Part shown: in pieces, positions 24,993-54,750 of the stretch | How the letters are laid out: each line of letters begins with the position of its first letter | Position numbering within the stretch: position 1 is the stretch's first letter | DNA from: Gammaproteobacteria bacterium | Lineage (GTDB): Bacteria; Pseudomonadota; Gammaproteobacteria; Xanthomonadales; SZUA-36 | Direction of reading: 5' to 3' | Length of the DNA stretch: 64,000 nt | NCBI GenBank assembly: GCA_024279945.1 | Contig: JAJRRA010000091.1 | Span: 1 to 64,000 of the forward strand | Position numbers and translations under genes: made by a program | Notes under the pieces: generated by a model | What the model was told of the DNA's origin: nothing | Databases searched by the model: none | What the model saw: only the letters and a program-made list of their open reading frames with translations

Positions 24993-25002
24993 AAATCTGC
25001 TA

Positions 25003-36214: not shown

Positions 36215-36216
36215 GT

Positions 36217-38974: not shown

Positions 38975-39340
38975 CTATTTCAGGATGAGCTTTTTCTCAT
39001 AGTTCACCATCTTCCTTTTGTAGTACAGGTCCAGTTCCCGTTTGTAGTTCACCTTGATCAGATACCCGTCTCCCTTTCGCGTTACATAGAATTTGTCCTC
39101 CATGTTGTTCATCAGGTTGATATCCAGTTGCCTTTTTATCGCTCTCATGATTTCACTGCTGTCGCGAAAGGGGGTGGTTCTGTGGTTCTTTTCAATGTTG
39201 TCCAGGATGGAATTCACCGTGCCGGACTCGATGAACTGCGGGAAGTACTGAAGCCCCACATAAATGCCGTAAGAGAAAACTACCAGGGTGATGAGGAGGC
39301 TGATGACGGAAGCGCCGCTCTGCTTTGATTGCATATGCAT
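38975..39340 (-). CDS. DUF4845 family protein
   Basis: This 121-residue protein has one N-terminal membrane helix (SVISLLITLVVFSYGIYVGL) and a small soluble domain with YFPQFIESGTV, as in DUF4845 proteins. In many gammaproteobacteria this gene lies near lepB-rnc; here it ends the Rnf operon, 14 bases after apbE. Function unknown. ATG at codon 3 is an alternative start. Confidence 0.82.
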   Translation of the reverse strand: MHMQSKQSGASVISLLITLVVFSYGIYVGLQYFPQFIESGTVNSILDNIEKNHRTTPFRDSSEIMRAIKRQLDINLMNNMEDKFYVTRKGDGYLIKVNYKRELDLYYKRKMVNYEKKLILK

Positions 39341-39354
39341 AGTGCCTTTGATCC

Positions 39355-40419
39355 CTATTGTGTGACAATGTGGCGTGTAAGTGTATTCGTCTCGACGATG
39401 ACTCTTTCCACATCTCCGGAAAACTGCATCCTCTGCTCCATTTCCGGCGTCAGGTAGACCATTCCGGCCTCATCCACGACCAGTACCTGGTTCAGGCCAA
39501 GTGCAAGGGCGACTGCAGGCCAGCCTTTGATGCCGGCAACCACCAGTGCGGTTGCGGCCGCATCGGCGACAATACCCTCAGCGGCAATCACCGTGACGGA
39601 TGCCACGTCCTTCACCGGCCAACCGGTGCGCGGATCCAGGATGTGCGGGTAACGTTCTGTCTGGTCTTGCCGGAAGCGCTCATAATTTCCCGAAGTAAAC
39701 AGCGATTCATCTTCACGGACCGCCACCGCCCCGATGATGCCGCCACCCGGCTTTTTGACGGCCACATTCCAGGGCCGGTCCCCGTGTCGACCTATTGCAC
39801 GCAGGTCTCCCCCCGCATTTACGATGGCGCTGGTGATCCCCTGTTCACGTAAATACCTGATGGCCAGATCCACGGCATAGCCCTTGGCAATGCCGCCAAA
39901 GTCCAATTGAACGTAGGGGTCTGCAGAGCTCACTTGCAGGCCATCTATCCGGATATCCAGGCTTGAGGGGTGGTGAACGAGAATCTCATCAATGTTGGCC
40001 TGGCTCGGAGGCGGACCGATGACCGGGTAATCAGAAGTGTGAAAGCCCCACAAGCCGATCAGCCCGCCGATCGCCGCGTTGAAACGCCCCCCGGAAAGTT
40101 GTTCCATTTTCTGTGAACGCCGGATCATTTCAATGATGTCGGCATCGGCTGTTGCCGGCCGTCCTGCGGCGAAGGCCTGGTTGATATCGGTCAGCCGGCC
40201 TGGTTCCCAGGCGTGCCAGTCCCGGTGCATGCCGTTGAACATTTCCTGCAATTGTGAGAAAGCGTGATCACCCTGTTCCGGGGTGGCGCCCCAGAGCTTT
40301 ATTTCGATAATCGTGCCGAAAATAAACAGGTCGGCATTTTGTTCCCGGTTTCTTTGGCAGCCGGCCAGCAAGGTCAGGCAAACCAGGAGGCTTACTGAAA
40401 TTTTGAGGACCGACCTCAT
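39355..40419 (-). CDS. apbE: FAD:protein FMN transferase ApbE
   Basis: This 354-residue lipoprotein (lipobox LAGC) has an ApbE core: FGTIIEIK, RFNAAIGGLIGLWG, DFGGIAKGYAVD, VNAGGDLRAIG, then HILDPRTGWPV. It attaches FMN through a phosphoester bond to threonines in RnfG and RnfD on the periplasmic side. Cotranscription with rnf genes fits exactly that maturation role. It begins 6 bases after the small Cys-rich gene. Confidence 0.95.
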   Translation of the reverse strand: MRSVLKISVSLLVCLTLLAGCQRNREQNADLFIFGTIIEIKLWGATPEQGDHAFSQLQEMFNGMHRDWHAWEPGRLTDINQAFAAGRPATADADIIEMIRRSQKMEQLSGGRFNAAIGGLIGLWGFHTSDYPVIGPPPSQANIDEILVHHPSSLDIRIDGLQVSSADPYVQLDFGGIAKGYAVDLAIRYLREQGITSAIVNAGGDLRAIGRHGDRPWNVAVKKPGGGIIGAVAVREDESLFTSGNYERFRQDQTERYPHILDPRTGWPVKDVASVTVIAAEGIVADAAATALVVAGIKGWPAVALALGLNQVLVVDEAGMVYLTPEMEQRMQFSGDVERVIVETNTLTRHIVTQ

Positions 40420-40425
40420 ATCGTG

Positions 40426-40578
40426 CTAAGAGGCCTGATCCTTTTTCGTGCATTCCGATTTGTCGGCACAGCTTGTGCAACTCGCGCAGCCGGCAGCCTT
40501 TTGCCCCCGCCGGTGTGAGAGGCCAAAACCAACAAACAGCACACCCAATAAAATCAATGGTGCGATATAATCTTTCAA
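40426..40578 (-). CDS. 50-residue Cys-rich single-span membrane protein
   Basis: From a TTG at 40578 (GAGAG ribosome site eight bases upstream), the frame encodes a membrane helix (PLILLGVLFVGFGL). A short soluble tail follows with five cysteines in C-x2-C-x2-C then C spacing (GCASCTSCADKSEC). It resembles FeoB-associated or NqrM-like Cys-rich anchors. NqrM is needed for iron delivery to Nqr, so a maturation or electron-relay role in Rnf is plausible but inferred. It lies between rnfA and apbE. Confidence 0.68.
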   Translation of the reverse strand: MKDYIAPLILLGVLFVGFGLSHRRGQKAAGCASCTSCADKSECTKKDQAS

Positions 40579-40617
40579 GGTATTACTCTCGGGCGCCCGC
40601 TAAAGGCTACCTGCTCA

Positions 40618-41193
40618 TTATAGGAGCCCTGCGAAGCCCATAAAAGCGAGGGAAAGGATTCCCGCGATAATCAAGACCAGGCCGGTACCCTTGGCGATCC
40701 CCGGAATATCTGAAAACTCCAGGGATTCACGAATGGAAGCCATCAACACCAGCGCCAGCGTCAGGCCAAGCCCGGCGCCCACGGCAAAAGTCAGCCCCTG
40801 CAAAAATCCGTAGCCCCGATTGGTTTGAAAAATGGCTAATCCAAGAATGGCGCAGTTGGTGGTCATCAAGGGCAGAAAAATTCCCAGTTGCCGGAACAGG
40901 GTTGGCGAAAGTTTTTTGACCGCCATCTCCACGATCTGTACCAGTGAGGCAATCACGATAATGAAGGAGATGATGCGTAAGTAGGGAACGGTTTCCAGAA
41001 TGTAGGTATTGAGTACCCAGACACTCAGCGCAGTCAGCACCAGCACGAAAATATTGGCCAGGCCCATTCGCAGTGCCGTTTCCACCCGTGCGGAAACGCC
41101 CATAAAGGGACACAAACCCAGGAACATGGCTAGAGTAAAGTTGTTTACCACCATGGCGGAGAAGAAAATCGAAAACAGTGTCTGGTCATTCAT
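40618..41193 (-). CDS. rnfA: Rnf complex subunit RnfA
   Basis: This 191-residue membrane protein has six helices. Characteristic segments are NNFTLAMFLGLCPFMGVS near the N-terminus and TTNCAILGLAIFQ in the middle. These carry the paired cysteines (LC, NC) that hold an intramembrane iron-sulfur cluster with RnfE. It overlaps rnfE by four bases. Confidence 0.96.
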   Translation of the reverse strand: MNDQTLFSIFFSAMVVNNFTLAMFLGLCPFMGVSARVETALRMGLANIFVLVLTALSVWVLNTYILETVPYLRIISFIIVIASLVQIVEMAVKKLSPTLFRQLGIFLPLMTTNCAILGLAIFQTNRGYGFLQGLTFAVGAGLGLTLALVLMASIRESLEFSDIPGIAKGTGLVLIIAGILSLAFMGFAGLL

Positions 41194-41831
41194 AATGCTG
41201 TCTTCACTTGTTCATTGACTATTTCATTCGCTTTCTTGCGGTGTTCGGCATAGCCCATCGCCAGCAATATGAAACCCAGGGTGAGGAAACCACCGGCCGG
41301 AAGAACCATGATGACCCAGGGTTCAAAGTTCGGCCCAAATAATGAATACTCCAGGAATGCACCTGTTCCCAGGATCTCGCGAAAACCACCCATCATGAGC
41401 AGGGCGATGGTAAAACCAATGCCGGTTCCCACCGCATCGAGCAGCGAGCGGAAGGGATTATTTTTGGATGCAAAAGCTTCCTGGCGGCCCAGAATCATGC
41501 AGTTCACCACAATCAGGGCCATGAAGGCGCCCAGTTCTTTATGCTGCACCGGCGCATATGCCTGCAGCAGCATGTCCGCCAGGGTCACAAAGGTGGCTAT
41601 CACCAAAATGTACGCCGAAATACGCACCTCGTTGGGGATAAAACGCTTACAGCTTGAAACCAGTACACTCGAGCAGCAAATCACAAAAAAGGTCGCTGCA
41701 CTCATGGCCAAAGCGTTTTTCACACTGTTGGTAACAGCCAGTGCCGGGCACAAGCCAAGCATCTGGACCAGAACCGGGTTTTCGTCCCAGATACCGCGAA
41801 TAAAATCCTGAGACGGTGTTGTTGTCCTCAC
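41190..41831 (-). CDS. rnfE: Rnf complex subunit RnfE
   Basis: This 213-residue membrane protein is paralogous to RnfA with inverted topology. Motifs are NPVLVQMLGLCPALAVTN and VVNCMILGRQEAFAS. The GTG start overlaps the rnfG stop (GTGA). It supplies two cysteines to the intramembrane cluster. Confidence 0.96.
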   Translation of the reverse strand: MRTTTPSQDFIRGIWDENPVLVQMLGLCPALAVTNSVKNALAMSAATFFVICCSSVLVSSCKRFIPNEVRISAYILVIATFVTLADMLLQAYAPVQHKELGAFMALIVVNCMILGRQEAFASKNNPFRSLLDAVGTGIGFTIALLMMGGFREILGTGAFLEYSLFGPNFEPWVIMVLPAGGFLTLGFILLAMGYAEHRKKANEIVNEQVKTAL

Positions 41832-42562
41832 TGCTGCGCCTCCTCATCCACTGAACGCGCGGGCGCCTGTGGAATGCCCTGATCCAGTATTGGCTTCCAT
41901 TCCTCCAGTCCGTGGTTGATGATGCCAATCACTGTTTTTGAAGAAATAGTGGCCCCTGTAATCGTATCAATTTCGTTTGGAAGTCCTTTACCCGCACCTG
42001 ATTTAACCGGTACCAGAGGCGTTTCCGGACCTGCAAAAAACTGATCAACGAATGCTTTGTCCTTGTAGATTTTGTCACCCAGGCCGGGGGTTTCTTTGCT
42101 GTCCAGCACCTTCATTCCGGTCAGTTTTCCGGTCACATGATCAAAGCCGAAAATTATCTGCACGACATCCTGGAATCCCGATTCACCCCGCGAAACAGCC
42201 ACACCGAGTCGCTGGCCTGCGGCTGTGTATCCCACATAAACCCGCTTGAAATCGCTCTCTTTTGCACCTTCGGGAAGCGATAAAGACAGTGAACCATCGA
42301 CCAGGTAGTAGGTGTCATAGTGCTCTGCCCCGGGAAGCACTTCGTAGACCGCTTTGCGCAGTTGTTCGGCCTTGTATTTATCAATAATGGGTTTCGTGTG
42401 CTGGTTCACCAGCACGATCAGCAAGCCGGCCAGGGCGCCTGCGACGGCCAGGGTCGCCACCAGTTGAAAAGTGGAAACTTCCGCTTTGGCCGGGCTTTCC
42501 TGCTCAGGAGGTGTGCCGGAATCTTGCACTTCAAGGCCTTCGTTCATGCCTTCTTCACTCAT
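41828..42562 (-). CDS. rnfG: Rnf complex subunit RnfG
   Basis: The protein is about 244 residues. A cytoplasmic N-terminal stretch of roughly 30 acidic or polar residues precedes one membrane helix and a periplasmic FMN-binding domain. DTITGATISSKTV includes the S/TGAT motif whose threonine receives covalent FMN from ApbE. The start chosen is the ATG at 42562, which overlaps the rnfD stop by eight bases; the frame extends to 42595. Confidence 0.95.
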   Translation of the reverse strand: MSEEGMNEGLEVQDSGTPPEQESPAKAEVSTFQLVATLAVAGALAGLLIVLVNQHTKPIIDKYKAEQLRKAVYEVLPGAEHYDTYYLVDGSLSLSLPEGAKESDFKRVYVGYTAAGQRLGVAVSRGESGFQDVVQIIFGFDHVTGKLTGMKVLDSKETPGLGDKIYKDKAFVDQFFAGPETPLVPVKSGAGKGLPNEIDTITGATISSKTVIGIINHGLEEWKPILDQGIPQAPARSVDEEAQQ

Positions 42563-43571
42563 TGTCGGCCTCCTTTTTCTTTCCAGAGGTTCCAAACAGG
42601 CGAGGCTGTGTAGCGCGATTAATAAAGGGAACCAGCGCGTTCATCAGCAGGATGGCATACATCACGCCTTCCGGCAGGCCGCCCCAGATACGAATAACCA
42701 CGACCAGGAAGCCAATACCAAAACCAAACAGCCAACAGCCTTTGTTGGTGATCGGAGAGGTCACCATATCGGTTGCCATGTAGAACGCACCGAGCATCAT
42801 ACCGCCCGACAAGAGCATGAACATCGGCGGGAACTGCGAAATTCCGAGGGTGTAAAAGAGACCGGATACGGCAAAAGCAGAAACAAAAATACTGAGGGGA
42901 ATATGCCAGTTCAAGTGCCCCCGCCAAGCCAGGTAGAGGCCGCCGAGCAAAATCAACAAAGCGGATGTTTCCCCCAGTGAACCCCCGGTTGTCCCCATGA
43001 ACAGGTCGAGCAAAGGCGTCACCACCGGATCATCGCCGAACTTGAGGTTACCCAGTGGCGTCGCCGCAGTTGCCGCATCTACCACCGGACTCATAAACGG
43101 GAGTGCAAAATTATCACCCTGCAGTGTCCACCAGTGCTGTGTTTTGGCCGGCCAGGTGGTAATAGCCACCGGAAAAGCAGCCTGCAGAAAAGCACGCCCG
43201 ACCAGGGCCGGGTTAAAAATATTCTGCCCCAGTCCGCCAAAAATGATCTTGCCGAAGGCCATGCCGAAACCAGCGCCCAGGAAAGCCATCCAGAGGGGAA
43301 ACCCGGGCGGCAGCGTCAGGCCCAGTAACAGGCCGGTGATCATCGCAGACCCGTCTGCCAGAGAACCGGGAGTGGAGCCAAACAAGCGCTCTGTCAACAG
43401 GCAACCGGCGACACTGGCAAGCAAAACGAAAATCGCACTTGGCCCGAAGAAATAGATCGAGGCGGCAATTACCGGCACAAGGCTGATCACCACCGACCAC
43501 ATAATCCGGATCGTGGAATCAGCCGACCGGACGTGTGGTGAGGCGGTAATTTTGACGATGGAATCAGTCAT
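42555..43571 (-). CDS. rnfD: Rnf complex subunit RnfD
   Basis: This 338-residue membrane protein is homologous to NqrB. It has NPALVGRAFLQAAFP and GSLGETSALLILLGG; the Thr of GETSAL is the expected covalent FMN site. ATG 43571 overlaps the rnfC stop (ATGA); the frame is open to 43664 but that part lies inside rnfC. Confidence 0.95.
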   Translation of the reverse strand: MTDSIVKITASPHVRSADSTIRIMWSVVISLVPVIAASIYFFGPSAIFVLLASVAGCLLTERLFGSTPGSLADGSAMITGLLLGLTLPPGFPLWMAFLGAGFGMAFGKIIFGGLGQNIFNPALVGRAFLQAAFPVAITTWPAKTQHWWTLQGDNFALPFMSPVVDAATAATPLGNLKFGDDPVVTPLLDLFMGTTGGSLGETSALLILLGGLYLAWRGHLNWHIPLSIFVSAFAVSGLFYTLGISQFPPMFMLLSGGMMLGAFYMATDMVTSPITNKGCWLFGFGIGFLVVVIRIWGGLPEGVMYAILLMNALVPFINRATQPRLFGTSGKKKEADNE

Positions 43572-44902
43572 GGCGTAGCAAGTTTTCTCAGTTGGGCTCG
43601 GGAAGCGGCGAACAATTGGGACAAAGGGATATTGGACGGGCAGACATAGGAACAACATCCACAAAGCATGCAGTCACTCAAATGTGCTTCCGAAGCCATC
43701 TCCTCATAGCGTTCTGCTTTTGCCAGTATTCCCAATAATTGCGGATTGAGGAAGACCGGGCAGGCATCAAGGCATTTTCCGCAACGAATACAGGGCAGTA
43801 TATCCTGTCGTTTACACTCATCCCTGGAAAGAATGAGAATGCCGCCAGTGGCCTTCAGGATCGGCACATCCAGATTCGCCTGGCCCAGGCCCATCATTGG
43901 GCCGCCGAAAATAATTTCGGCTGCATCTTCGGTCAGGCCGCCACAGTGTTTGACTACATCACGCAGTTTTGTGCCGAACGGTATCAGCCAGTTGCCGGGT
44001 TTGCGAATACCCCGTCCGGTCACGGTGATGATGCGCTCGATCAGTGGCTGTCCCGTCTCAAATACCGTGGCTACATTTGCTGCCGTAGCGACATTCTGCA
44101 CCATAGCGCCGATCGCGCTGGGCAGGGCGCCCGAGGGAACTTCACGGCCCATCACGGCCTTAATCAACATTTTCTCGGCGCCTTGCGGGTACTTGACCTG
44201 CAAAGGCAGAACCGTGACATCGAGGTCATCCGGAGCAGCCTTGCGCATCACCTCGACGGCGTCCATTTTATTGGCCTCGATGCCAATCACGGCGCGGCTG
44301 ATGCCCAGCGCCTTGAGGGCGATACGAATGCCCAGGTATACCCTTTCCGGATACTCCAGCATCGTTCGGTGATCTGAGGTGAGATAGGGCTCACACTCAC
44401 AACCATTGATCAGCAAGAGTTCAATCGGCTGATCTTTCGGTGGGGTCAACTTGACATGGGACGGGAAGGCGGCACCGCCCAGGCCCACGATACCTGCCTT
44501 GGCAATTTCCTTTGAAAGGTCTTCGTCCTTAACATCCTGCCAACGCGGGATAATGCGTGGTCGCTGCATCTGCGTTGAATTGGGATCAACGTCAATGCGG
44601 ATGGACGGAACCATATCACCGTTTGGGTGTGGCCACAGTTCGATCGACTTCACCGTGCCCGAAGCGGTCGCATGAACAGCAGAGGAAATATAACCAGCCG
44701 CTTCTGCAATGGCATCCCCTCGCTCAACACGGTCACCCGGCTGCACCAACGCTTTGGCCGGTGTTCCGATATGCTGTGACAGGGGAAGGATTATTTCATC
44801 GGGAAAGGGAAATCGCCGGGAGGCAATTCCCGCGGTAATATCCTTGTTTTCCGGGGGATGAACCCCGTGTTTGAAGCTAAGCAAGCCTTTCATTCCTGAC
44901 AT
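43568..44902 (-). CDS. rnfC: Rnf complex subunit RnfC
   Basis: This 444-residue peripheral subunit has an N-terminal HGVHPPENK signature and a Rossmann-like NADH/FMN region (GIVGLGGAAFPSHVK, NGCECEPYLTSD). Two C-terminal [4Fe-4S] motifs follow (CIRCGKCLDACP and CMLCGCCSYVCP). It is the NADH-side subunit. The length matches compact RnfC proteins without the long Ala-rich tail of many gammaproteobacterial forms. It starts 13 bases after the PFOR stop. Confidence 0.96.
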   Translation of the reverse strand: MSGMKGLLSFKHGVHPPENKDITAGIASRRFPFPDEIILPLSQHIGTPAKALVQPGDRVERGDAIAEAAGYISSAVHATASGTVKSIELWPHPNGDMVPSIRIDVDPNSTQMQRPRIIPRWQDVKDEDLSKEIAKAGIVGLGGAAFPSHVKLTPPKDQPIELLLINGCECEPYLTSDHRTMLEYPERVYLGIRIALKALGISRAVIGIEANKMDAVEVMRKAAPDDLDVTVLPLQVKYPQGAEKMLIKAVMGREVPSGALPSAIGAMVQNVATAANVATVFETGQPLIERIITVTGRGIRKPGNWLIPFGTKLRDVVKHCGGLTEDAAEIIFGGPMMGLGQANLDVPILKATGGILILSRDECKRQDILPCIRCGKCLDACPVFLNPQLLGILAKAERYEEMASEAHLSDCMLCGCCSYVCPSNIPLSQLFAASRAQLRKLATP

Positions 44903-44915
44903 ATCCAGTCGATGC

Positions 44916-47900
44916 TCAATTGAAGGGCTCGGCTCGTTTGATCAACTTGTCCAAACCTTTTTCTTTGGGATTCAGGGGATCGCCGGGATGGATACACTCT
45001 GCCGGGCAAGCCTCCGCCGCAACAACAAGCTGCTTGAACGTTCCCAATTTCGGATCTGAAATGTAGGCTTGCTGGTCATCGTTATAGACAAACATCTCGG
45101 TGTTTACCTTCAGACAATCATCACAGGAGGTACAACGAATGGTGTCGATATAGGGGTCATTGCCCATATCTTCGTCATCGTCGTCTTCCTCAGCAACCGG
45201 GGCTGGTGTTGTTGCGGCCGCTTCATCCTGGGCATCCGCAGGAACAGGAGATACGGAATCTGTTGCTGGCGCGCCGGAAAGGCTGATTGAATCCGGCGCA
45301 ATGAACGCGGGACCCTCCCAGTTTTCCGCTTTCTCAAGCAGTTGAGCAACCGTGTCGTTGGCACTTGCTTGCAACAGGCCTTCGGCAAGGCGCCTTGCAA
45401 TCAGTTGTGGATACTGGGTAGCCAATGTTTTGATTTTCGCTTCGTACTCTGCCTTGAGCGCTGCAAACCGGCCTTCCATTTCTTCCGTCAGAGTTTCGGT
45501 GACAGCCTCACGCATGTTCTGCGAAACATCGAGTCCAGCCATTTCTTTAAGTTGCGCCCAGTGGCTCAACCGTTCTTCTGCGAGTTGTACGATCTCGTCC
45601 GATACCGTCATTTTGCTCAGGCGCCGCTTGGCATCAACTGTGTAAACAAAGGCGGTTTCACCCTCCCGCTCGTCTGCATCCATTTCGACATACTCATGGA
45701 AGGGAACCAGTTCATCATCCTCGACCGCCTTGCGGAAGTGCCCTCGGAATCGTGCTTCACCCAGGGCCCAGTCAGCAGTCGTGACCGGCAAAGTCATCTT
45801 TTGTTCTTCGCCTTCCTCATCGACATAAACGAGTTCATAGCTTGTCCAGGTTTCCAGTGGCGAGGGATTGCCTTCCAGGTCAAGGCATTCAGAGAAGGTC
45901 GTGCCCCGGTCGGGATCAAACACAATATTCGGCACCGCGCGGCTTTCTAGTGCAAGCCTGGCGGCATCCGGTGCGCCGAAATCTGCGATTCCCCATTCCG
46001 GCGGGCAAGGCGTATTCATGATGAACAGGGCGGGCCGTCTGGCCTGCAAACCTTTCAGGACATTTTGAATAAGATGTGATGGTGTTGCCTGCGAAGATTG
46101 CATCACGAATACACCCCGGTGGGCCATTGCGATCAGGGCAAGTTCCTTGCGAACCTCTTCCTTGCCGCGCTGATCAGGCCCGAATTCAGCCATATCGGAT
46201 ACCTGGCCGGTGAAACCGGAGGTACAGGCCTGGCCACCCGTGTTGGAGTAAACCTGGGTGTCGACCACGACCACCCGGATCGGCTTGTTCGAAGCCATCA
46301 GGCGTGACAGGTTCTGGAAACCGATATCCATCATGGCGCCGTCACCGCCAACGGCAAACAAAGGCGGGCACAGCGTAAATTCATCGTCCGAGAACTGTTC
46401 CCATTCAAAGTTCGACAGGAATGTTTCGTCGGTCTCGGCGTCATAGGAATTGGACAGCAGTTTTTCAGCCCGGCGAACGGTGACAAAACCGTCTGCCATC
46501 TTGCGCATATGGCCTTCAAAAATGCCCACAGCAACCGATGGCGCATCCTGGAACAGGTGGTTCACCCAGGGGAAGGGGTAGGGGTTATAGGGATAGGATG
46601 AACCCCATACCGAACTGCAACCGGTGGAGTTGGTAAAGCCCAGATGGGCACGGCCACGACCACTGGGGCCTTCTTCATAACGCCACTTGAGGTCTTTCAG
46701 TTGCTCAATGGTTTTGTGGATCAGTCGCACCCTTGCTTTCTTTTCTTCGGCAAGCGGCACAGAAAGCTCTTCCGAGCCGGAAGAGACGGCGGCCAGATCG
46801 GTTTCCGATATCAGCAGGCTGCGGGCCGCTTCATCCAGTTTGTTGATCAGTTGCGTCAGGTGTTTAATGTGTTCCGCTACACGCGGCGCCATGAAGGCAT
46901 TGACGGTGGAAAGAATCAGGTGAATAGTGGTTTTTTCACCGCAGCCCATGCAGGCGCCATCACCACCGACCATGGACAGGTAGTTGCTTTGCTTCAACAA
47001 CAGCGATGACATGACACCAATGCCTTCGTCCAGGCTGGAAATCTTGATGTACTGATCATCGGTTTCCGGCAGTTTTTGCCAGAACTTCCAGTTTGATTCG
47101 AGGGTTTCCTGGAATTCTTCGGTCTGGCGCACGCTGACCAGAGCGCCATCGGCACAAACGGCAACACAAATGTCGCAACCCTTGCAGGTTTCCGGGTTGA
47201 CGGTGATCGAAAGCAGTCCGCCGCTGCCCTTCTTTTTGCTTTCCGGCAGATCAAAGAAGGGTGCAGTTTTGGCCAACGGGAATTCCGCCACGGCGGCATA
47301 AACCAGGTTGTACTGGGCATCGACTTCGGCCCGCCGCTCGGCATCCCAGTTGGATTTGTCGGCCACCGTTTCATAGGCCTGCGCCAACACTGCGGCATAG
47401 GTTTTGAAGGTGCCGCTGGAGATGATCTTGCGGGATTCTTTACCCAGGTGTTTTATGATCTGGGAAAACCGTGTCAGTGGTTTTTGCGGGGAAGAAATGA
47501 CTGCAACAGCGGTTTCCAGTATTTCTTCCACCGTGTTGACCACGCCGGGGATGGCGGAGTCGGGGCACTGAGTCCAGCACTTGCTGCAACCGGTGCATTT
47601 TTCTGCAATAAATTCAGGCACATTGAAACGAACCGCCGACATGTCGCGCATGCTCGATGTCGCTGCCGGAATCGCACTGATGGCCGTGAACGGATCGGCG
47701 ATCACATCTTTGCCGGTCTTGTACTGAACGCAGACCTGGTTCCAGAAATCTCCCTGATTGCCCAACCCGGTGGCCGCGTCAGCGCCCGCCATGGCATGTG
47801 GAATCAAGGGCAATAGTTCTTCGTGCCCGGCATCCCCCAGTTCGGCAAGATCCAGTTCCTGTACCTCGTCAAACCCCCGTGTGATAACGCGAATATTGTC

Positions 47901-49937
47901 TTCTACAACGCTTGGGCCTAAATGACCGAACTTCTTGTTCAGTTGTTTTTCAATGCCCTCGAACAGGCGCTCCCGTGAGAGGCCGTGTGCCTTCATCAAG
48001 GGGGCCGCCCGGAAGAAGGCGCCCAGAAAGGCTACGCCCTGCATGCGGAAACGAAGTTCCGCTTTTGACGCCTCGGAAAGTGCGATATTGAAGCCGTCAA
48101 CCGAAAATACCCTGATTTTCTTCGCCCGGATTGTCGCCTGGGCTGTTTTTGGAAAGCTGTTCCACAGTTCCTCACCACTGAGTTCACTCTGGATGATGAA
48201 CACACCCTCATCACACAAGCCCGCCAGCGGGTTTGAATGCAAAAAGACATTCGGGTCAGGGGAAAGCACCACGCTGACATGCTTCAGTTCGCAATTCAGG
48301 CGCAAGGGTTCCTTTGACAACATGGCATAGAACGTTGTCGGCTGACCCTTCTTTTCCGAACCATATTTCGGGTTGGCCTTGATGTGCATGCCGAGCAGTT
48401 CGGCTGCGGTCATCGCCAGGTTCTTGCCCATGGTGATGGCGCCCCAACCACCCACCGAATGGATACGCAGCTCAACGGAATCTTCGGGAAAGAGGTTTAA
48501 ATTCCCCGCCGATGCAAGCGCCAAATCCGCTACATGCGGGTAATCGGCAAGAATTTTCTCCTGCCAGATTTGCATTTTGGGCAGCGGTGTGTCCTTCTGA
48601 ATGAAATCAATACCGAGGTAGAACTGACGCTGCTTACGCCCACCTTCAAGCATGTTGTTAATCGCGGCGATAATATCACCCGGCTGCAGATCGCGGCTTC
48701 CCAGGCCGAAGCACCCAGAGTAGAAATCGGGGATTTGATCTCCGCGTAGTGCGGCCAGGCCCGGATAGGGAAGACCGGCATCATTGCCTGAACGGCCATT
48801 TTCAGCCGCCTGCGCCATCGCCGTGCGAATCTCACGAATCATCGGTAATTCAACCGCCAGCGGTTGATCGGTTCGCTCCAGAACAACCACCCCTTTCTTG
48901 CCTGCCAGCATGCTGGAAATCAAGTCTGCCGGGAACGGACGGAACATCACCAGGTCGAGCACACCCACTTTCAAACCACGTTTTTCGCGCAGGTAGTCTG
49001 CAACGACTTCTGCATTGCAAATCACAGAGCCCTGGCCAACGATCACATACTCGGCATCTTCCAGGCGGTAGCCCAGGGCACGATTGTATTTACGACCGGA
49101 CAGCGCTTCAAACTCGGAAAAGGCCTGGTCGGCCAGGTCTGCAATATGATCAAAATAGAAGGGTCGCTGCGCGGCAACGCCCTGTGCATAGGATTCCTGG
49201 TTTTGCACCACGCCCAGCATGGCGGGGTAATCAAAATTGTAAAGTTCGGGGATGCGCCGCCGGCGCTCACCAAACACGGCCCTTTGCGCCCCGGTTGGCG
49301 AGTCAATGATATCCGCCGGGTCACCCAGGTATTCCCGGATCAATTCACGTTCCGGTTCACGGAAGGACTCAATGACATGACTGGTCAGGAAGCCGTCCTG
49401 CGCGCACATGCCCGGGTTGAGTGAAAGCTCCGCGATGCGGTGCGCGATAAGATTCAGATCAGCAACACTCTGCACATCTTTCGCAAACAGTTGAAAAAAT
49501 CCGGTGTCGTCAACGGCATGGTAGTCATCGTGCCCGGCATGCACGTTGAGCGAGTGCTTGGTCATGGCACGGCAGGCCACATTCAGAACATAGGTGAGGC
49601 GCTTGCCTACCGCCGCGTACAGCGACTCGTGCATGTAGGCGATGCCCTGACCGCTGGAAAAATTGGTTGAGCGCAAACCGACCATGCTCATTCCCGCCGT
49701 GACACCGGCGGCGGCGTGTTCGCCTTCAGGTTCAAAGAAAATCAGGTTGCGCCCGTTGACGTTCTTGTCACCGCGGGCAACCGCGGCTGCCCAGCCTTCA
49801 CCCATCTGCGTTGAAGGCGTGATCGGATAGGCGCCTGCTGCTTCACTTGCAGCGGTTTCCATTGAAACTACGGCCGAACTTCCATCCTCGGTTTTAAAAA
49901 TTCCGGGGTACTTGGCCTCGTTCATTCCCTGGCTCAT
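44916..49937 (-). CDS. nifJ: Giant pyruvate:ferredoxin oxidoreductase with fused C-terminal ferredoxin
   Basis: At 1673 residues this exceeds the usual 1170-1230 of single-chain PFOR. N-terminal alpha domain: SEAAGAYPITPSTQMG. Gamma domain near 500: SVGGWGAITMGKNLA. Two 4Fe-4S motifs lie near 780 (CTGCSKCWTQCP) and 919 (CKGCDICVAVC). TPP domain: GGDGACMGCGEKTT near 994 and AVGGDGAMMDIGF near 1200, with YSNTGGQACTSG. An added helical region and an Ala/Pro/Asp linker (about 1545-1600) lead to a single-cluster ferredoxin (CTSCDDC, later ACPAEC). It converts pyruvate plus CoA to acetyl-CoA, CO2 and reduced ferredoxin, possibly reversibly. It overlaps rnfB by four bases. The substrate could also be another 2-oxoacid. 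Confidence 0.93.
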   Translation of the reverse strand: MSQGMNEAKYPGIFKTEDGSSAVVSMETAASEAAGAYPITPSTQMGEGWAAAVARGDKNVNGRNLIFFEPEGEHAAAGVTAGMSMVGLRSTNFSSGQGIAYMHESLYAAVGKRLTYVLNVACRAMTKHSLNVHAGHDDYHAVDDTGFFQLFAKDVQSVADLNLIAHRIAELSLNPGMCAQDGFLTSHVIESFREPERELIREYLGDPADIIDSPTGAQRAVFGERRRRIPELYNFDYPAMLGVVQNQESYAQGVAAQRPFYFDHIADLADQAFSEFEALSGRKYNRALGYRLEDAEYVIVGQGSVICNAEVVADYLREKRGLKVGVLDLVMFRPFPADLISSMLAGKKGVVVLERTDQPLAVELPMIREIRTAMAQAAENGRSGNDAGLPYPGLAALRGDQIPDFYSGCFGLGSRDLQPGDIIAAINNMLEGGRKQRQFYLGIDFIQKDTPLPKMQIWQEKILADYPHVADLALASAGNLNLFPEDSVELRIHSVGGWGAITMGKNLAMTAAELLGMHIKANPKYGSEKKGQPTTFYAMLSKEPLRLNCELKHVSVVLSPDPNVFLHSNPLAGLCDEGVFIIQSELSGEELWNSFPKTAQATIRAKKIRVFSVDGFNIALSEASKAELRFRMQGVAFLGAFFRAAPLMKAHGLSRERLFEGIEKQLNKKFGHLGPSVVEDNIRVITRGFDEVQELDLAELGDAGHEELLPLIPHAMAGADAATGLGNQGDFWNQVCVQYKTGKDVIADPFTAISAIPAATSSMRDMSAVRFNVPEFIAEKCTGCSKCWTQCPDSAIPGVVNTVEEILETAVAVISSPQKPLTRFSQIIKHLGKESRKIISSGTFKTYAAVLAQAYETVADKSNWDAERRAEVDAQYNLVYAAVAEFPLAKTAPFFDLPESKKKGSGGLLSITVNPETCKGCDICVAVCADGALVSVRQTEEFQETLESNWKFWQKLPETDDQYIKISSLDEGIGVMSSLLLKQSNYLSMVGGDGACMGCGEKTTIHLILSTVNAFMAPRVAEHIKHLTQLINKLDEAARSLLISETDLAAVSSGSEELSVPLAEEKKARVRLIHKTIEQLKDLKWRYEEGPSGRGRAHLGFTNSTGCSSVWGSSYPYNPYPFPWVNHLFQDAPSVAVGIFEGHMRKMADGFVTVRRAEKLLSNSYDAETDETFLSNFEWEQFSDDEFTLCPPLFAVGGDGAMMDIGFQNLSRLMASNKPIRVVVVDTQVYSNTGGQACTSGFTGQVSDMAEFGPDQRGKEEVRKELALIAMAHRGVFVMQSSQATPSHLIQNVLKGLQARRPALFIMNTPCPPEWGIADFGAPDAARLALESRAVPNIVFDPDRGTTFSECLDLEGNPSPLETWTSYELVYVDEEGEEQKMTLPVTTADWALGEARFRGHFRKAVEDDELVPFHEYVEMDADEREGETAFVYTVDAKRRLSKMTVSDEIVQLAEERLSHWAQLKEMAGLDVSQNMREAVTETLTEEMEGRFAALKAEYEAKIKTLATQYPQLIARRLAEGLLQASANDTVAQLLEKAENWEGPAFIAPDSISLSGAPATDSVSPVPADAQDEAAATTPAPVAEEDDDDEDMGNDPYIDTIRCTSCDDCLKVNTEMFVYNDDQQAYISDPKLGTFKQLVVAAEACPAECIHPGDPLNPKEKGLDKLIKRAEPFN

Positions 49938-50785
49938 ACGGCTTTCTTCTCCAACTCTTGTGAGCTTTCTTCAAACTGCTGTCCTTCAATCCACACAATC
50001 GCATGGGTCGGACATCGTGAAATTGCCTTCGGGTCGGTCAAGGCATTCTTTTCATAATTAATAACAGCGAGATTATCAATGATTTCAATGACACCAGGCT
50101 CTGAATCAGCGACACATTTGTTACAGGCATTGCAGGCAACACTGCAAAGATCTTCGGCAGCATCGCCATTGAGCAAATTCTTGCACTGCACGATCAATTT
50201 CTGCTCCACCGGCATCAGCACAAAAAGATCCTTGGGGCAGGCTACAACGCAGTCGTTGCAAGCCGTACAAAGTTCAGGAATGACGACCGGCAGATCATCC
50301 TCATTCATGTAGATCGCGTCGAGCAGGCAGACCACTTCGCAATCGGCAAGACCCAGGCATCCCCAGGTGCAGGCTTTACCACCGCCTGCTACTGCAGCGG
50401 CAGCCTTGCAGGTTTCAAAGCCCGAGTAATCGGAATGACGCACGGCTTCATTTTTGCCGCCTGCGCAAAGCAGGCGGGCAACACGTTTGGTTGCTTCGCC
50501 GGCATCAACGCCCAGGTAAGCGGCTACATTGTCAATGTCATCAGAGCCCATCACCGTACAACCCGACGGTGCCTGTTCCCCGGAAACCACGGCTTCGGCA
50601 AATGCCCGGCAACCCGGCATACCACAAGCGCCACAGTTGGTGCTCGGCAACAACTCTTCCACCTCATCGATGCGGGGATCTTCCCACACCCAGAATTTCT
50701 TGTTCGCCATCGCGATCAGAAAACCGAAGAATAGCCCCACGCCCCCGAGAATCAGGGCTGAATCCAAAATGGAGTTTCCGGTCAT
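49934..50785 (-). CDS. rnfB: Rnf complex subunit RnfB, long polyferredoxin form
   Basis: In this 283-residue protein a membrane helix is followed by the CGACGMPGCRAFAEA cluster domain. A segment typical of long RnfB (CTWGCLGLADCEVVC) and two further cluster motifs (CTACNDCVVACP and CSVACNACNKC) come next. Classical gammaproteobacterial RnfB is about 190 residues; this length and layout resemble the forms of anaerobes. It is the ferredoxin-accepting subunit, encoded directly before the PFOR with an ATGA overlap, which suggests direct electron hand-off. Confidence 0.94.
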   Translation of the reverse strand: MTGNSILDSALILGGVGLFFGFLIAMANKKFWVWEDPRIDEVEELLPSTNCGACGMPGCRAFAEAVVSGEQAPSGCTVMGSDDIDNVAAYLGVDAGEATKRVARLLCAGGKNEAVRHSDYSGFETCKAAAAVAGGGKACTWGCLGLADCEVVCLLDAIYMNEDDLPVVIPELCTACNDCVVACPKDLFVLMPVEQKLIVQCKNLLNGDAAEDLCSVACNACNKCVADSEPGVIEIIDNLAVINYEKNALTDPKAISRCPTHAIVWIEGQQFEESSQELEKKAV

Positions 50786-50809
50786 GAATTACGGCCTTTC
50801 AACACTTGC

Positions 50810-51772
50810 CTAGGCAGACAAGTTCGTTTGACTCAATAGCCAGGCTGAGAGTTTGCCTGCGGGGTCTGATGCGGCATCCCCTGTTGCCACAGGCGCCACG
50901 GACAGGCTTTCCAGCAATGCGTAATCTTCCGCCTGTTGCGTTGGGCTGAGGCCGCCAATCGCGCGTTTTTTCACTTCCTTCGGAAAAGCCACTGAGACAA
51001 AACGTTCAAAGCTCGTCTCGCCTGCCGCAGGGTCATGCACAAAGCTCGCCGCATTGGCCGGAAGCAGCGCGGCGACAGCCATTCCATCAAAACCCGCGAA
51101 GGCTTCCAACGGCGCATCACCGGTTTCCTGCTGCACAAACACGGAGGGAGAAACCACGCGTGACAGAGCTGCCGCAGGCGCGTCACCATCCAGGTTGAAA
51201 ACAAATTTTATCTTTGCATCGAGCAAAGGAATAATCGCTGCCGGCTTTAAATCAGCGCCGGTCAATTCAATCACCAGGGCAGGGGCCAGCGCACGCTCTG
51301 AACTGTTCCACTGGGCGAACGGGAACCGTTCCAGTGTCGCCGCGTGTTTGTCTTCCTTGTAGGCGCCACGTTTCGCCAGTTCAATGACCCGTGCTGCCGC
51401 AAAGGCGCGCCCGATTTTTGCAAATCGCATACCGACCTGACGACCCAGCCCTCTGCCTTCTTCCAACTGAAGGACGAACAGTTCATCTCCTTCTGCCAGC
51501 AGGGAAGTCAGCACTTCCTGCGCAGCGCGAATGGGTGCTTCAGCCTCATCATTAATCCGTGCAGCCTTCGGCGCAAAAGAAGCGAAACGGTCGACATTCA
51601 CTTTGCCTTCTGCAAAATGACCTAATGCTACCGATTGATCATCTGCGGTATTGCCTGATCCGGACAACAGGCCTCGAACCTGGTCCGAAGCAGTCGCAAC
51701 TGCAGAATGAAACAATTCAATACGTGAGCGAATTGCATCCAGGGCAATTCCCTTTCGTTCGTCAGACGGCAT
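50810..51772 (-). CDS. Unrecognised 320-residue protein in the kor-rnf operon
   Basis: I do not recognise a family. The ATG at 51772 overlaps the korB stop by 11 bases and rnfB begins 24 bases after its stop, so it is embedded in the operon. The sequence is soluble, Ala-rich, with no cysteine, membrane helix or signal peptide. Segments include FVLQLEEGRGLGRQVGMRF, ALVIELTGADLKPAAIIP and IKFVFNLDGDAPAAALSRVV. It might be a scaffold, assembly factor or regulator linking the oxidoreductases to Rnf; this is inference from position only. An upstream open frame to 51985 lies within korB. Confidence 0.75.
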   Translation of the reverse strand: MPSDERKGIALDAIRSRIELFHSAVATASDQVRGLLSGSGNTADDQSVALGHFAEGKVNVDRFASFAPKAARINDEAEAPIRAAQEVLTSLLAEGDELFVLQLEEGRGLGRQVGMRFAKIGRAFAAARVIELAKRGAYKEDKHAATLERFPFAQWNSSERALAPALVIELTGADLKPAAIIPLLDAKIKFVFNLDGDAPAAALSRVVSPSVFVQQETGDAPLEAFAGFDGMAVAALLPANAASFVHDPAAGETSFERFVSVAFPKEVKKRAIGGLSPTQQAEDYALLESLSVAPVATGDAASDPAGKLSAWLLSQTNLSA

Positions 51773-52715
51773 AGCGGTCAAACTCCTTTTCCAGCCGGGT
51801 GGTTTTTTCCTCTGCAGAAACAGGGCTAACGGCCCGGATTTCATCGTAGACGGGAAAACTGTCATCACGGAAGAAGATACCCAGGCGCAGCATGTCGGTG
51901 CGTTGCGCCAGGGCTCTCGCCTCATCCAGGTTCTTCGGATCGTGCTCACGTCGTGCCTTGAACAGCTTGTCCAGGCCGGGCGCATTCACACCATCTTCGT
52001 GAATCAGCAACTCGGTCAGGTCGGGGTTTTTAACCTGCTCGGTAAATACGTCAGGCGTAAACTTGGGACAACGCTGCAGGATGCGGACAAAGGAAAAACC
52101 CGGGTGCTCATAAGCCGCCTGCAGGGTGGCATAGAGATGCGCAGGTACCCAGTCGGCGGTCTGGGCCACAAAGGATGCATTCGAAACACCCAGTGTCGCC
52201 TGCAGCGGATTGAGTGCAGGCAGGAACGAACCCCGCGGTGTGGTGTTTGAGGTATGACCCTGCGGGGTGGTCGGTGAGGTTTGATTCTTGGTCAAGCCGT
52301 AGATGTTGTTATCCAGCAGCAAGACAGTCAGGTTCGGGTTGTAGCGTGTGGCATGGAGCCAGTGCCCGGCGCCGATGGAGGTGCAGTCACCATCGCCCAT
52401 GACGACAAACACATCCAGTTCAGGTCGCGCGAGTTTCAATCCGGTGGCAATGGGCAACGCGCGGCCATGAATGCCATGGAAGCCGTAGGCGTTGACGTAA
52501 TGAGGGAAGCGACTGGAACAGCCGATACCGGATACGAAAGCCATCTTCTCAGGCTGGAGTTGTTCACTGGACAATAATCGCTTTACCGCATTGAGGGCGC
52601 CGAAGTCGCCACAGCCGGCACACCACTTGCCTTCACGGGTCTGATAATCTTCCGGCTCAAGACAGACGAAGTTGTCGGCTTCAAGATCCAGCAGAGAAAT
52701 TGCGATGCTGCTCAT
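51762..52715 (-). CDS. korB: 2-Oxoglutarate (2-oxoacid):ferredoxin oxidoreductase beta subunit
   Basis: This 317-residue TPP-binding subunit carries WCAGCGDFGALNAV, SGIGCSSRFPHYVN, HGRALPIATGLKLA and VVMGDGDCTSIGAGH (TPP-Mg site), followed by NNIYGLTKNQ. The ATG overlaps the korA stop (52712-52715). KorAB pairs convert 2-oxoglutarate to succinyl-CoA with ferredoxin, or the reverse in reductive carbon fixation; the exact 2-oxoacid is inferred. Confidence 0.93.
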   Translation of the reverse strand: MSSIAISLLDLEADNFVCLEPEDYQTREGKWCAGCGDFGALNAVKRLLSSEQLQPEKMAFVSGIGCSSRFPHYVNAYGFHGIHGRALPIATGLKLARPELDVFVVMGDGDCTSIGAGHWLHATRYNPNLTVLLLDNNIYGLTKNQTSPTTPQGHTSNTTPRGSFLPALNPLQATLGVSNASFVAQTADWVPAHLYATLQAAYEHPGFSFVRILQRCPKFTPDVFTEQVKNPDLTELLIHEDGVNAPGLDKLFKARREHDPKNLDEARALAQRTDMLRLGIFFRDDSFPVYDEIRAVSPVSAEEKTTRLEKEFDRYAV

Positions 52716-54580
52716 GGGGTGACTCCTTTCTCTAAATTATCGACAATCGAATTATAGATGTCTTGTGGTCGAAGGGGTTGTCCGGGACAACTGGTCCAGC
52801 AATCAATGTCAACCAGGGTCTGGGCGCGAAGCAGCCAGGCGAGTTGACCGTAGCGTCGTGTTTCTTCCGTAATGTATGGGTCGCCAACGGTGTCGGAGTA
52901 GTTGATCTCTACGGTCATCACTTTCCCAAACCGGCTAAAAATTTCTTTCAGGCCGGGTTCCAGTGGCGAGAGGAAAGTCAACTGGCAGGAAGAGACTTTT
53001 TTTCCTTCTGCGCGGGCACGCTCCACTGCTTCTTCAATGGCGCCCTGGGTTGAGCCCCAGCCAACCACCAGGAGGTCACCATCCTCATCGCCAAAAACAG
53101 TGGGAGGCATCAGTGTAGACTGGAAGACCGCCAGTTTGCGACTGCGCATTTTACATCCCCGCTCGTTACTTTCGGGGTCATAGGAAACTTTGCTCTCCTC
53201 ATCATGCGCCAGCCCGGTCACGGTGTGCTGGCCACCGGGCGTACCGGGAATAACCCGCCGGGACATACCCGTCTCGGGGTCCCAGTCATACGGTCGCAAG
53301 CCTTCCGGAAGGGCTGAAAAATCAATCGGGTCCTGCTGCCAGCGCGGGTCAAATTCAGGGCGGGTAAACTGCTGTACACCGGAGGCCAGGTTGGCATCGG
53401 TGAGGACGATCACCACGCAACGGAAAGTCTCTGCGATACGGCGTGCCGTGATCATGGAATGGAAACATTCTTCGATGGTTCGTGGCGCAATAACAACGCG
53501 CGGCGCATCACCGGGCTGGGCATAAAGTGCCGCCAACAGATCAGATTGCTCCACCTTGGTGGGCAGGCCGGTTGACGGCCCGCCGCGCTGGACATCCAGC
53601 ACCACCAGTGGGATTTCAACCATGATGGCCAGCGCCAGGAACTCTGTTTTGAGCGCCAGTCCCGGACCGGACGTGACCGTCAAAGCCACTTTACCGCCAT
53701 AAGATGCACCGAGCGCCACACCGGCGGCCGCAATTTCATCTTCAGCCTGATGCACCATGCCGCCATAGTTTTCGAAAATATCTGAAAGCTCATGCGACAC
53801 CGATGTCGCCGGTGTGATGGGGTACATGGCGCAGATTTCCATGCCGGCAGCGATAGCGCCCAGCGCACTCGCCTGGTTGCCGTTCATTACCACACGTGAT
53901 TCTTCGGCCGGTACTGAATCGATTTTGAACTGGAAGCCCAGATTCTCCCGTGCCCAGGCGATTCCGTTTTTCACCAGTTCTACATTGATTTCAGTTATTT
54001 TAGCCGGCTTGTGCCGGAAGATGTGTGCAATCTGCTTTTCGATGATGGACAGGTCGCGCTGATAGATTTCAGTCAGAAGCCCCAATGCAAACATGTTTTT
54101 ACCATGTTGCGGGTTGTCCACCACTTTGAGTGTTTCTTCTTCAATGGGTACGGCGAAAAAACGATAGTTTTTCGAGGACATTTCCTCCATCGCTTCGGCA
54201 TAGGCTGTGCGGATCGCTTCATCCTCGTGGTTTTCCCACATGCTTTCAAGGAGAATGATGCAATCGTCATCGAAAGAGTTCAGTCGGTGGCGTGAGAGCA
54301 GCACCTGATCATTGAAGGCGATTGCCAGTTTTGATTGATCCCCCCAGTTGGTAATCAATCCCGTGCCGAAACGCACGATGTTCCCTGATGTACTGGTCAC
54401 CGTGTGATGTGGCGGTTCGATCTCGGCAGGAATGATCTCAACCGTCCAGACACCGTTACCCATCTTGGCACATGTTTGACCGAAAATCTGCGCGCATTTC
54501 TGTGCACCTTCACCTGAATTGGTAATGATTTCAACGGTATGTTCGGGGACTTCGGTAATTGTTGTTTCTTTATTAGCCAT
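52712..54580 (-). CDS. korA: 2-Oxoglutarate (2-oxoacid):ferredoxin oxidoreductase alpha subunit, gamma-alpha fusion
   Basis: The protein is about 622 residues. An N-terminal gamma domain (GEGAQKCAQIFGQTCAKMG) is fused to the alpha domain (ALGAIAAGMEICAMYPITPA, VTSGPGLALKTEFL, QRGGPSTGLPTK). The start chosen is the ATG at 54580 (ANKETTITEV); the frame continues to 54709 through promoter sequence. It is the first gene of the long operon and divergent from pyc. Confidence 0.94.
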   Translation of the reverse strand: MANKETTITEVPEHTVEIITNSGEGAQKCAQIFGQTCAKMGNGVWTVEIIPAEIEPPHHTVTSTSGNIVRFGTGLITNWGDQSKLAIAFNDQVLLSRHRLNSFDDDCIILLESMWENHEDEAIRTAYAEAMEEMSSKNYRFFAVPIEEETLKVVDNPQHGKNMFALGLLTEIYQRDLSIIEKQIAHIFRHKPAKITEINVELVKNGIAWARENLGFQFKIDSVPAEESRVVMNGNQASALGAIAAGMEICAMYPITPATSVSHELSDIFENYGGMVHQAEDEIAAAGVALGASYGGKVALTVTSGPGLALKTEFLALAIMVEIPLVVLDVQRGGPSTGLPTKVEQSDLLAALYAQPGDAPRVVIAPRTIEECFHSMITARRIAETFRCVVIVLTDANLASGVQQFTRPEFDPRWQQDPIDFSALPEGLRPYDWDPETGMSRRVIPGTPGGQHTVTGLAHDEESKVSYDPESNERGCKMRSRKLAVFQSTLMPPTVFGDEDGDLLVVGWGSTQGAIEEAVERARAEGKKVSSCQLTFLSPLEPGLKEIFSRFGKVMTVEINYSDTVGDPYITEETRRYGQLAWLLRAQTLVDIDCWTSCPGQPLRPQDIYNSIVDNLEKGVTP

Positions 54581-54750
54581 GCTGCTCACTGCTACAAACT
54601 CCAAAAGCCGGGGGCATTGAACCAGAGCACTTTTTCTCCGGGAATCCAGACCCACTGATATTGGTGCATGGTAGAGCATCAATAGTGCCTTCCACTTGAT
54701 TTTGATCAACTCAAACAGGGGGTTTTCTGTACAGTGGAGTAATCAAAAAT

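Follow-up and report, generated by a model that had tools for sequence, protein, structure and literature searches.

A second Rnf gene cluster interleaved with a ferredoxin-tailed PFOR gene in a gammaproteobacterium: a candidate ion-pumping 2-oxoacid:NAD+ oxidoreductase

The closest described relatives of the locus reported here are the Rnf complexes of acetogens and other anaerobes (Acetobacterium woodii, Thermotoga maritima), the housekeeping rnfABCDGE (rsx) cluster of Gammaproteobacteria, the canonical pyruvate:ferredoxin oxidoreductase (PFOR; NifJ) of Desulfovibrio africanus and Moorella, the mycobacterial-type KorAB and the Na+-NQR pump with ApbE and NqrM. The locus lies in a stretch of 64,000 nucleotides (positions 1 to 64,000 of contig JAJRRA010000091.1, assembly GCA_024279945.1, a gammaproteobacterium of the SZUA-36 lineage), hereafter the window, where a single operon combines korAB, a PFOR gene (PFOR-L), a complete set of rnf genes and a gene for a protein that we call X; each component is of a known kind. 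With acetogen-type Rnf it shares the six subunits, the NAD/FMN motif of RnfC, a flavinylation-type motif in RnfG and ApbE, but PFOR-L is interleaved with or precedes the rnf genes, RnfC forms a clade of its own, and the electron donor is probably tethered rather than diffusible. The subunits are homologous to those of the rsx cluster, which the same genome carries elsewhere in classical rnfABCDGE order (G000:C46), so that the window holds a second Rnf; it differs in gene order and location, and its RnfC is about 40% identical to RsxC and shorter (444 amino acids against an open frame of 523). PFOR-L has the domains, the thiamine pyrophosphate (TPP) and substrate residues and the three [4Fe-4S] clusters of canonical PFOR, but is about 450-500 amino acids longer, with inserts and a fused ferredoxin tail. 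KorAB, which we take to be similar to that of Mycobacterium, likewise consists of a fused gamma-alpha KorA and a KorB, but is encoded here in one operon with Rnf and X. As with Na+-NQR, an ion-pump operon is accompanied by apbE and a gene for a small Cys-containing membrane protein, but the entry subunit is RnfB instead of NqrF and the small protein has no NqrM family match; passages of PMC12174285 describe NqrM and ApbE as co-located with Na+-NQR. In the abstracts and passages of the open-access literature that were searched, we found no description of the PFOR-L/Rnf arrangement, of the ferredoxin fusion, of a dedicated clade of Rnf, of X or of the decayed PFOR-L copies presented below.

The operon probably encodes, with chances that we put slightly above even, a second, specialised Rnf complex with its own 2-oxoacid-oxidising front end, that is, an ion-pumping 2-oxoacid:NAD+ oxidoreductase. 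That PFOR-L and Rnf form a dedicated module is very likely from the comparisons given below, while physical docking of PFOR-L on Rnf and a net forward direction, from oxidation to NADH, are each rather probable. From position 54580 down to 38975 the minus strand reads korA-korB-X-rnfB-PFOR-rnfC-rnfD-rnfG-rnfE-rnfA-small Cys protein-apbE-DUF4845, as follows.

52712..54580, minus strand: korA, 2-oxoacid:acceptor oxidoreductase alpha subunit (fused gamma-alpha); TIGR03710 515 bits against a cut-off of 483, PF01855, PF01558; start candidates ATG 54580 or GTG 54589
51762..52715, minus strand: korB, TPP-binding beta subunit; PF02775 above cut-off, TIGR02177 226 bits, below the cut-off of 262
50810..51772, minus strand: X, 320 amino acids; no Pfam or NCBIfam match
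49934..50785, minus strand: rnfB, polyferredoxin electron-entry subunit; PF04060, TIGR01944 91 bits against a cut-off of 69, 20 Cys
44916..49937, minus strand: PFOR-L, 1673 amino acids, with inserts and ferredoxin tail; PF01855, PF17147, PF01558, PF02775, PDB matches to PFOR
44919..45149, minus strand: tethered [4Fe-4S] ferredoxin domain of PFOR-L, residues 1597-1673, Cys 1602, 1605, 1608 and 1644; PF13370 (Fer4_13) above cut-off
43568..44902, minus strand: rnfC, NAD/FMN-binding subunit; TIGR01945 515 bits, motif GIVGLGGAAFPSH
42555..43571, minus strand: rnfD; TIGR01946 325 bits
41828..42562, minus strand: rnfG, with TGAT flavinylation-type motif; PF04205, TIGR01947 101 bits, just below 102
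41190..41831, minus strand: rnfE; TIGR01948 227 bits
40618..41193, minus strand: rnfA; PF02508 above cut-off, TIGR01943 223.5 bits, just below 229.3
40426..40578, minus strand: small membrane Cys-rich protein (TTG start); weak PF12669 match, 17.5 bits against a cut-off of 27
39355..40419, minus strand: apbE, FAD:protein FMN transferase; PF02424 237 bits
38975-39340, minus strand: DUF4845 protein, after apbE

An earlier note, made from this sequence alone, had read these 13 genes in the same order on one strand, and the order holds; its statement that most junctions are overlaps of 4-11 bases applies to 7 of the 12 (4, 11, 4, 4, 8, 4 and 4 bases), the other five being gaps of 24, 13, 39, 6 and 14 bases. 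It was also right that the layout is not the classical rnfABCDGE, the order being B-PFOR-C-D-G-E-A; with PFOR left out this becomes rnfB-C-D-G-E-A, the order given for the Chlorobi/Bacteroidetes type in the passages seen of PMC4014512. The label nifJ stands as far as PFOR identity goes but not as canonical NifJ, since PFOR-L reaches 380 bits against a cut-off of 911 for the equivalog TIGR02176. The DUF4845 gene does follow apbE on the same strand, but its membership in the module was rejected: blastp did not find it after apbE in any of the three close relatives with at least 2 kb beyond apbE (L041, L053, L076), nor with the operon in the other related loci compared, and the module is therefore counted as 12 genes.

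PFOR-L belongs to a distinct PFOR family with a C-terminal tethered [4Fe-4S] ferredoxin. In the window its residues T40, E73, R123, GDG 1198-1200 and N1232 match T31, E64, R114, GDG and N996 of the D. africanus enzyme (DaPFOR), which we take to be TPP and substrate residues, and all 12 Cys of its three [4Fe-4S] clusters are present. The structure model shows the tail as a confident ferredoxin domain after a linker (pLDDT <50 at model residues 230-267), and its best match among solved structures is ferredoxin I of D. africanus (1fxr; root-mean-square deviation 0.9 A, TM 0.84). An alignment of 14 PFOR-L sequences shows the tail Cys in every one, and 101 of the 107 rows of the site audit described below have them; of the six remaining rows, five are truncated by the end of a contig and one is L184. 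The fusion itself is kept in all 74 closed frames (71 by pattern, 3 by eye) among the matches listed in a wide scan of the genome collection, from which 80 loci were kept and in which more exist. L184, from a single-contig gammaproteobacterial genome, is laid out as korA-korB-X'-free ferredoxin-rnfB-decayed PFOR, two unidentified genes and then rnfCDGEA; the PFOR lacks a tail, and the free ferredoxin of 98 amino acids between X' and rnfB is 54% identical to the tail, so that from their sequences the two appear to be the same part, unfused and fused.

These observations bear on whether the genes might merely be co-regulated, with diffusible ferredoxins carrying electrons from PFOR-L and KorAB to Rnf, no complex being formed and the tail serving as a convenient ferredoxin. 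PFOR (NifJ) and Rnf are described as working in concert in rumen butyrivibrios in the part of PMC4478896 that was seen, the tail has an ordinary ferredoxin fold, and L184 encodes its ferredoxin separately. However, the window operon, with gaps of at most 39 bases, leaves no room for a free ferredoxin gene, the fusion is kept in all 74 closed frames of the wide scan, a count to which L184 does not belong, and a PFOR-L whose sole task was to supply reduced ferredoxin would hardly account for the retention of decayed copies with their relay clusters. We regard such a shared pool as quite unlikely, and favour a dedicated complex fed through the tethered ferredoxin.

The earlier note proposed searching for the rnfB-nifJ-rnfC junction in other genomes, and this search shows that the junction recurs across phyla and is not unique to this assembly. 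Among 41 genomes (that of the window and 40 relatives), 14 have PFOR-L; rnfC adjoins it in 13 and the contig ends in the 14th (G006). None of the 27 genomes without PFOR-L has a second RnfC above the family cut-off (read by eye), and none of nine NifJ-like matches in the 41 genomes shares a contig with rnfC. Among the matches listed in the wide scan, rnfC lies directly downstream of PFOR-L in 67 of 69 loci with enough sequence (the exceptions are L097 and L118) and rnfB directly upstream in 53 of 74. The record titles of those listed name Gammaproteobacteria, Gemmatimonadota, Planctomycetota, Rokubacteria, Hydrogenedentota, Calditrichota, Acidobacteriota, Myxococcota, Bacteroidota and Verrucomicrobia/Kiritimatiellae, about ten phyla in total, and a pairing that recurs so widely looks like a dedicated machine. 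Three layouts are found: korA-korB-X-rnfB-PFOR-rnfCDGEA (clade 1, including the window), rnfB-PFOR-rnfCDGEA, and PFOR-rnfCDGEA...rnfB, mostly in Bacteroidota. Among 232 genomes drawn separately from the class, 16, the window's own included, gave a strong match, and rnfC adjoins PFOR-L in 10 of the 11 loci that could be tested (exception L183; the count leaves out L182 and L184-L186). In this draw G070 is of the decayed type, its operon having no second case among its relatives (1/20, G070 itself), and G133 and G239 have split PFORs without rnf. The gene surroundings of weaker PFOR matches were viewed for eight. No rnf was seen near related unlinked or split PFORs in ten fetched stretches (L185, L186, L220, L226, L231-L236; that of L220 only 4.5 kb); eight of these PFORs were placed in the tree, all outside PFOR-L, and the ferredoxin tail is absent in the four checked (L185, L186, L226, L231).

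Most of the related loci come from metagenome bins, which can be misbinned, and chance clustering or an assembly artefact might be suspected on this ground. The PFOR-rnfC junction is nevertheless present in isolates (Gemmatirosa, Persicobacter, Algoriphagus, Aquiflexum, Cecembia, Rubripirellula and others) and in the single-contig genomes G110 and G147, and we consider an artefact extremely improbable. The presence of the family in isolates such as Algoriphagus, Gemmatirosa and Rubripirellula also makes the proposed module testable.

A shared history of PFOR-L and RnfC is indicated by their phylogenies. In a quick tree, a single clade with support 100 holds the 79 PFOR-linked RnfC together with two extra copies; RsxC from these genomes falls outside it, as do the Rnf of Bacteroides, Fusobacterium and clostridia that were added for comparison. 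The A. woodii and T. maritima Rnf are absent from this tree. Distances in the PFOR-L and RnfC trees are correlated over 79 pairs (r = 0.917, against a maximum of 0.10 in 200 permutations), and 41 of 76 splits are common to both, with seven strongly supported pairs in conflict. The window's family contains both clade-1 and clade-2 versions in the RnfC tree, which suggests horizontal transfer. The junction counts, the single RnfC clade, the tree correlation, the fused ferredoxin and the restriction of a second rnfC to PFOR-L genomes among the 41 strongly support the inference of the earlier note that 2-oxoacid oxidoreductases and Rnf form a dedicated module.

In the mechanism that we propose, PFOR-L would oxidise a 2-oxoacid, most likely pyruvate, with coenzyme A, and the electrons would pass through its three [4Fe-4S] clusters and the tethered C-terminal ferredoxin to RnfB; Rnf would hand them on through RnfC to NAD+, pumping ions and making NADH. 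KorAB, whose substrate is probably 2-oxoglutarate, would feed the same line, with the relay clusters and ferredoxin tail of PFOR-L and the TPP-less X serving as its docking and wiring. The 2-oxoacid couple lies near -500 mV and NAD+ at -320 mV, a gap that pyruvate and 2-oxoglutarate dehydrogenases leave uncaptured; if the proposal is true, respiring and facultative bacteria would gain an additional site of energy coupling by drawing an ion gradient from it. For reduced ferredoxin, passages of PMC11889175 give about -430 to -500 mV, with NAD+ at -320 mV. A bolder version, to which we give a little less than an even chance, has a stable supercomplex in the membrane acting as a 2-oxoacid-fuelled ion pump: electrons would never enter a free ferredoxin pool, KorAB and PFOR-L would both dock on RnfB through the relay clusters and tail of PFOR-L, and PFOR-L would have become a catalytically dead wire in some lineages. 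If true, this would be an ion-pumping analogue of the pyruvate and 2-oxoglutarate dehydrogenases across many phyla, a link that plain nifJ and rnf labels hide.

The role of PFOR-L as a wire is suggested by its catalytic site. We audited the residues matching DaPFOR T31, E64, R114, GDG and N996 and all cluster Cys in 107 rows, among them duplicates (e.g. L060 twice, and L044 and L059 identical). The eight relay-cluster Cys are present in all 107 and the proximal-cluster Cys in 105. The TPP/substrate residues are lost in L093, L094 and L184, with L225 as a further decayed case; L093 and L184 have also lost the proximal cluster, and the tails are kept in L093, L094 and L225. The residue corresponding to N1232 is lost alone in L040, L042-L047, L059 and L060. 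For the decay count, rows more than 99% identical were dropped (112 to 105) and L220 and L226 were left out as another PFOR type; of the 39 operons with korAB, 9 showed a change in the catalytic site, against none of the 36 that lack korAB (Fisher p 0.0024, ignoring kinship), the korAB status of 30 further rows, two of them changed, being unknown. As the changes fall, among operons of known korAB status, in those with korAB and the relay clusters are kept, PFOR-L may also wire KorAB to Rnf, and the decayed copies form a natural test case for the conversion of a redox enzyme into a wire. PFOR-L of L093 and L094 (identity about 50%) as an in-place swap from another clade was rejected, since the site audit and the tree show them to be decayed members of the same clade.

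Carried further, the same pattern could mean that in korAB lineages PFOR-L catalysis is dispensable and that its retained job is to conduct KorAB electrons to RnfB. All four decayed copies keep both relay clusters, korB or korAB lies inside the operon of L093, L184 and L225, and X, itself TPP-less and domain VI-like, stands between korB and rnfB. Against this, neither the window nor most operons show any change in the catalytic site, so that conduction is not the whole story here, independent losses are few in the tree, and the korA-korB-X of the L094 genome are not joined to rnfB on their contig. That contig is separate from the one with PFOR-L, and the 2.35 kb following X hold no rnfB; L094 is for this reason treated as of unknown context and does not add to the korAB/decay count, and the idea that these genes are the severed front of its operon was rejected. 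A mainly structural role is on the whole doubtful, and with PFOR-L intact both it and KorAB should work in the window, as in the front end that we favour.

Protein X also points towards PFOR-L. Its profile aligns with residues 1144-1364 of PFOR-L (hhalign E 6.4e-5, probability 64%) and shows no match to KorB, NifJ, RnfC or KorA (E 0.08-0.44); on this ground the ideas that X is related to KorB or is a piece of RnfC, KorA or NifJ were rejected. With hmmsearch the X profile finds PFOR-L in 107 domain rows at E <1 from 92 proteins, compared with 1 of 92 reversed and 0 of 92 shuffled sequences, 0 of 4 NifJ, 0 of 15 KorB and 0 of 104 RnfC. The model of X (pLDDT 83.5) has PFOR domain VI at ranks 1-7 of its fold matches (Z 7.1-7.6), and Foldseek gave no match at E <0.001. 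Neither the TPP-binding GDG...N motif nor the proximal-cluster Cys is seen in X in the alignment. X thus looks like a non-catalytic paralogue of domain VI of PFOR-L that does without TPP, by inference a dead copy of the TPP domain retained as a structural part; the X' of L184 is a longer protein of the same kind.

Upstream of the operon, the following element was found.

54696..54709, minus strand: box of the FNR/Anr type, TTGAT-N4-ATCAA (read on the operon strand: TTGATCAAAATCAA), roughly 110-120 nt upstream of the start of korA

We take TTGAT-N4-ATCAA to be the consensus of FNR-type boxes. This is its single perfect match in the 64 kb, where 0.18 are expected and at least one occurred in 16 of 100 shuffles. 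A looser box, TTGAY-N4-RTCAA, lies upstream of the first gene, korA, in 5 of 82 loci (L039, L040, L041, L053, L076; the window's own not counted), all clade-1 gammaproteobacteria, with 0.0036 expected per 500 bases. A scan for promoters and terminators was uninformative (10 and 21 matches, compared with 10.2 and 20.4 in shuffles). The box before korA suggests expression of the operon at low oxygen, where FNR would turn it on when oxygen is short. Because the genome encodes an FNR with an N-terminal Cys cluster and haem-copper oxidase-family genes, the host is likely an aerobe or facultative organism that uses the module at low oxygen.

The host's metabolism also leaves room for use in reverse, in which NADH and the ion gradient would push electrons back to the tail, PFOR-L and KorAB acting as pyruvate and 2-oxoglutarate synthases that fix CO2 for anaplerosis or to assimilate acetate. 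In other bacteria Rnf can run in both directions according to the passages seen of PMC11889175 and PMC12174285, a pyruvate carboxylase gene is divergent next door in the window and in L040 of the same genus, and a carboxylating role would not be redundant with the oxidative pyruvate dehydrogenase (PDH)-type and 2-oxoglutarate dehydrogenase (OGDH) enzymes already present. The FNR-type box, however, points to low oxygen, a condition under which cells could plausibly need to decarboxylate oxidatively with NAD+. We hold reverse use to be unlikely and retain the oxidative direction. KorAB as a stand-in for a missing OGDH was rejected, since OGDH (PF16870) is found in 41 of 41 genomes, the window's own included.

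Several observations weigh against the oxidative, Rnf-coupled reading or parts of it. The genome has both OGDH and a nearby PDH-type E1/E2, so that the gain offered by the module over these enzymes is one that we infer. PFOR-L without adjoining rnfC exists (L118, L183, L097). A ferredoxin-NADP reductase-like flavoprotein gene follows rnfA in 36 of 92 loci, all of clade 2, and electrons may leave by other routes in these operons. Four other clade-1 gammaproteobacteria (L042, L043, L045, L046) have no FNR-type box upstream. When only fully decayed sites are counted, the association with korAB falls to 3 of 33 compared with 0 of 36 (p 0.10); it is confounded with one clade, the tree needs about three origins, L184 sits on a very long branch, and the KorAB-bearing operons of Bacteroidota (L110, L112) are intact. 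The scores that relate X to PFOR-L are marginal, with a probability of 64%, middling Z values below 8, and unrelated helical proteins at Z 6.3.

The rnf genes themselves appear complete. All six subunits A, B, C, D, G and E have Pfam matches above cut-off, and the NCBIfam cut-offs are passed by RnfB, C, D and E. RnfC has the domains PF01512, PF13375, SLBB and Fer4, with an NAD/FMN site and two [4Fe-4S] motifs, and its eight cluster Cys are invariant in 15 aligned RnfC. Putative covalent-FMN motifs, read with a motif that we presume to be diagnostic, are TGAT in RnfG and TAAT in RnfD; ApbE, whose gene follows rnfA in many clade-1 operons, probably serves both. The small Cys protein, matched by blastp in gammaproteobacterial relatives and in L055, is possibly an Fe-S maturation helper, NqrM-like by architecture only; its identification as NqrM itself was rejected, as no family match supports it.

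Around the operon, fused E1 and E2 genes of the PDH or branched-chain 2-oxoacid dehydrogenase (BCKDH) type lie on the same strand at 35015-38345, the E1 gene being the next on this strand after DUF4845, at a distance of 629 bases; in relatives, blastp located neither of them next to the operon. The pyruvate carboxylase gene, full-length, occupies 54842-58285 and is divergent from korA. Elsewhere the window's genome has two further 2-oxoacid oxidoreductase loci, L169 (G000:C78) and L170 (G000:C65), 33-40% identical to KorAB. In L097, 7.5 kb of other open frames (9405-16958) separate PFOR-L from rnfC. The clade-2 flavoprotein is exemplified by L086 19404-20258, with 35 other clade-2 loci; in the single member that was scanned, an NAD-binding reductase domain scores above the Pfam cut-off and an FAD-binding domain just below, and the flavoprotein is perhaps an NADP branch or NADPH outlet. 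A conserved protein of about 120-140 amino acids, with no Pfam family in the one member scanned, is encoded just upstream of PFOR-L in L103 (9580-9942) and 11 other loci, nearly all Bacteroidota. An HdrA-like flavin/Fe-S protein is encoded near clade-2 operons in L087 (4699-6138, beside a distant korAB pair) and five other loci. Finally, L086 (Calditrichales) has a second Rnf cluster upstream (2-4848), preceded by another divergent PFOR-like C-terminus and possibly representing a further PFOR-Rnf type, and in the Gemmatimonadota bin of L064 a second rnf cluster (21397-25130) follows directly after apbE.

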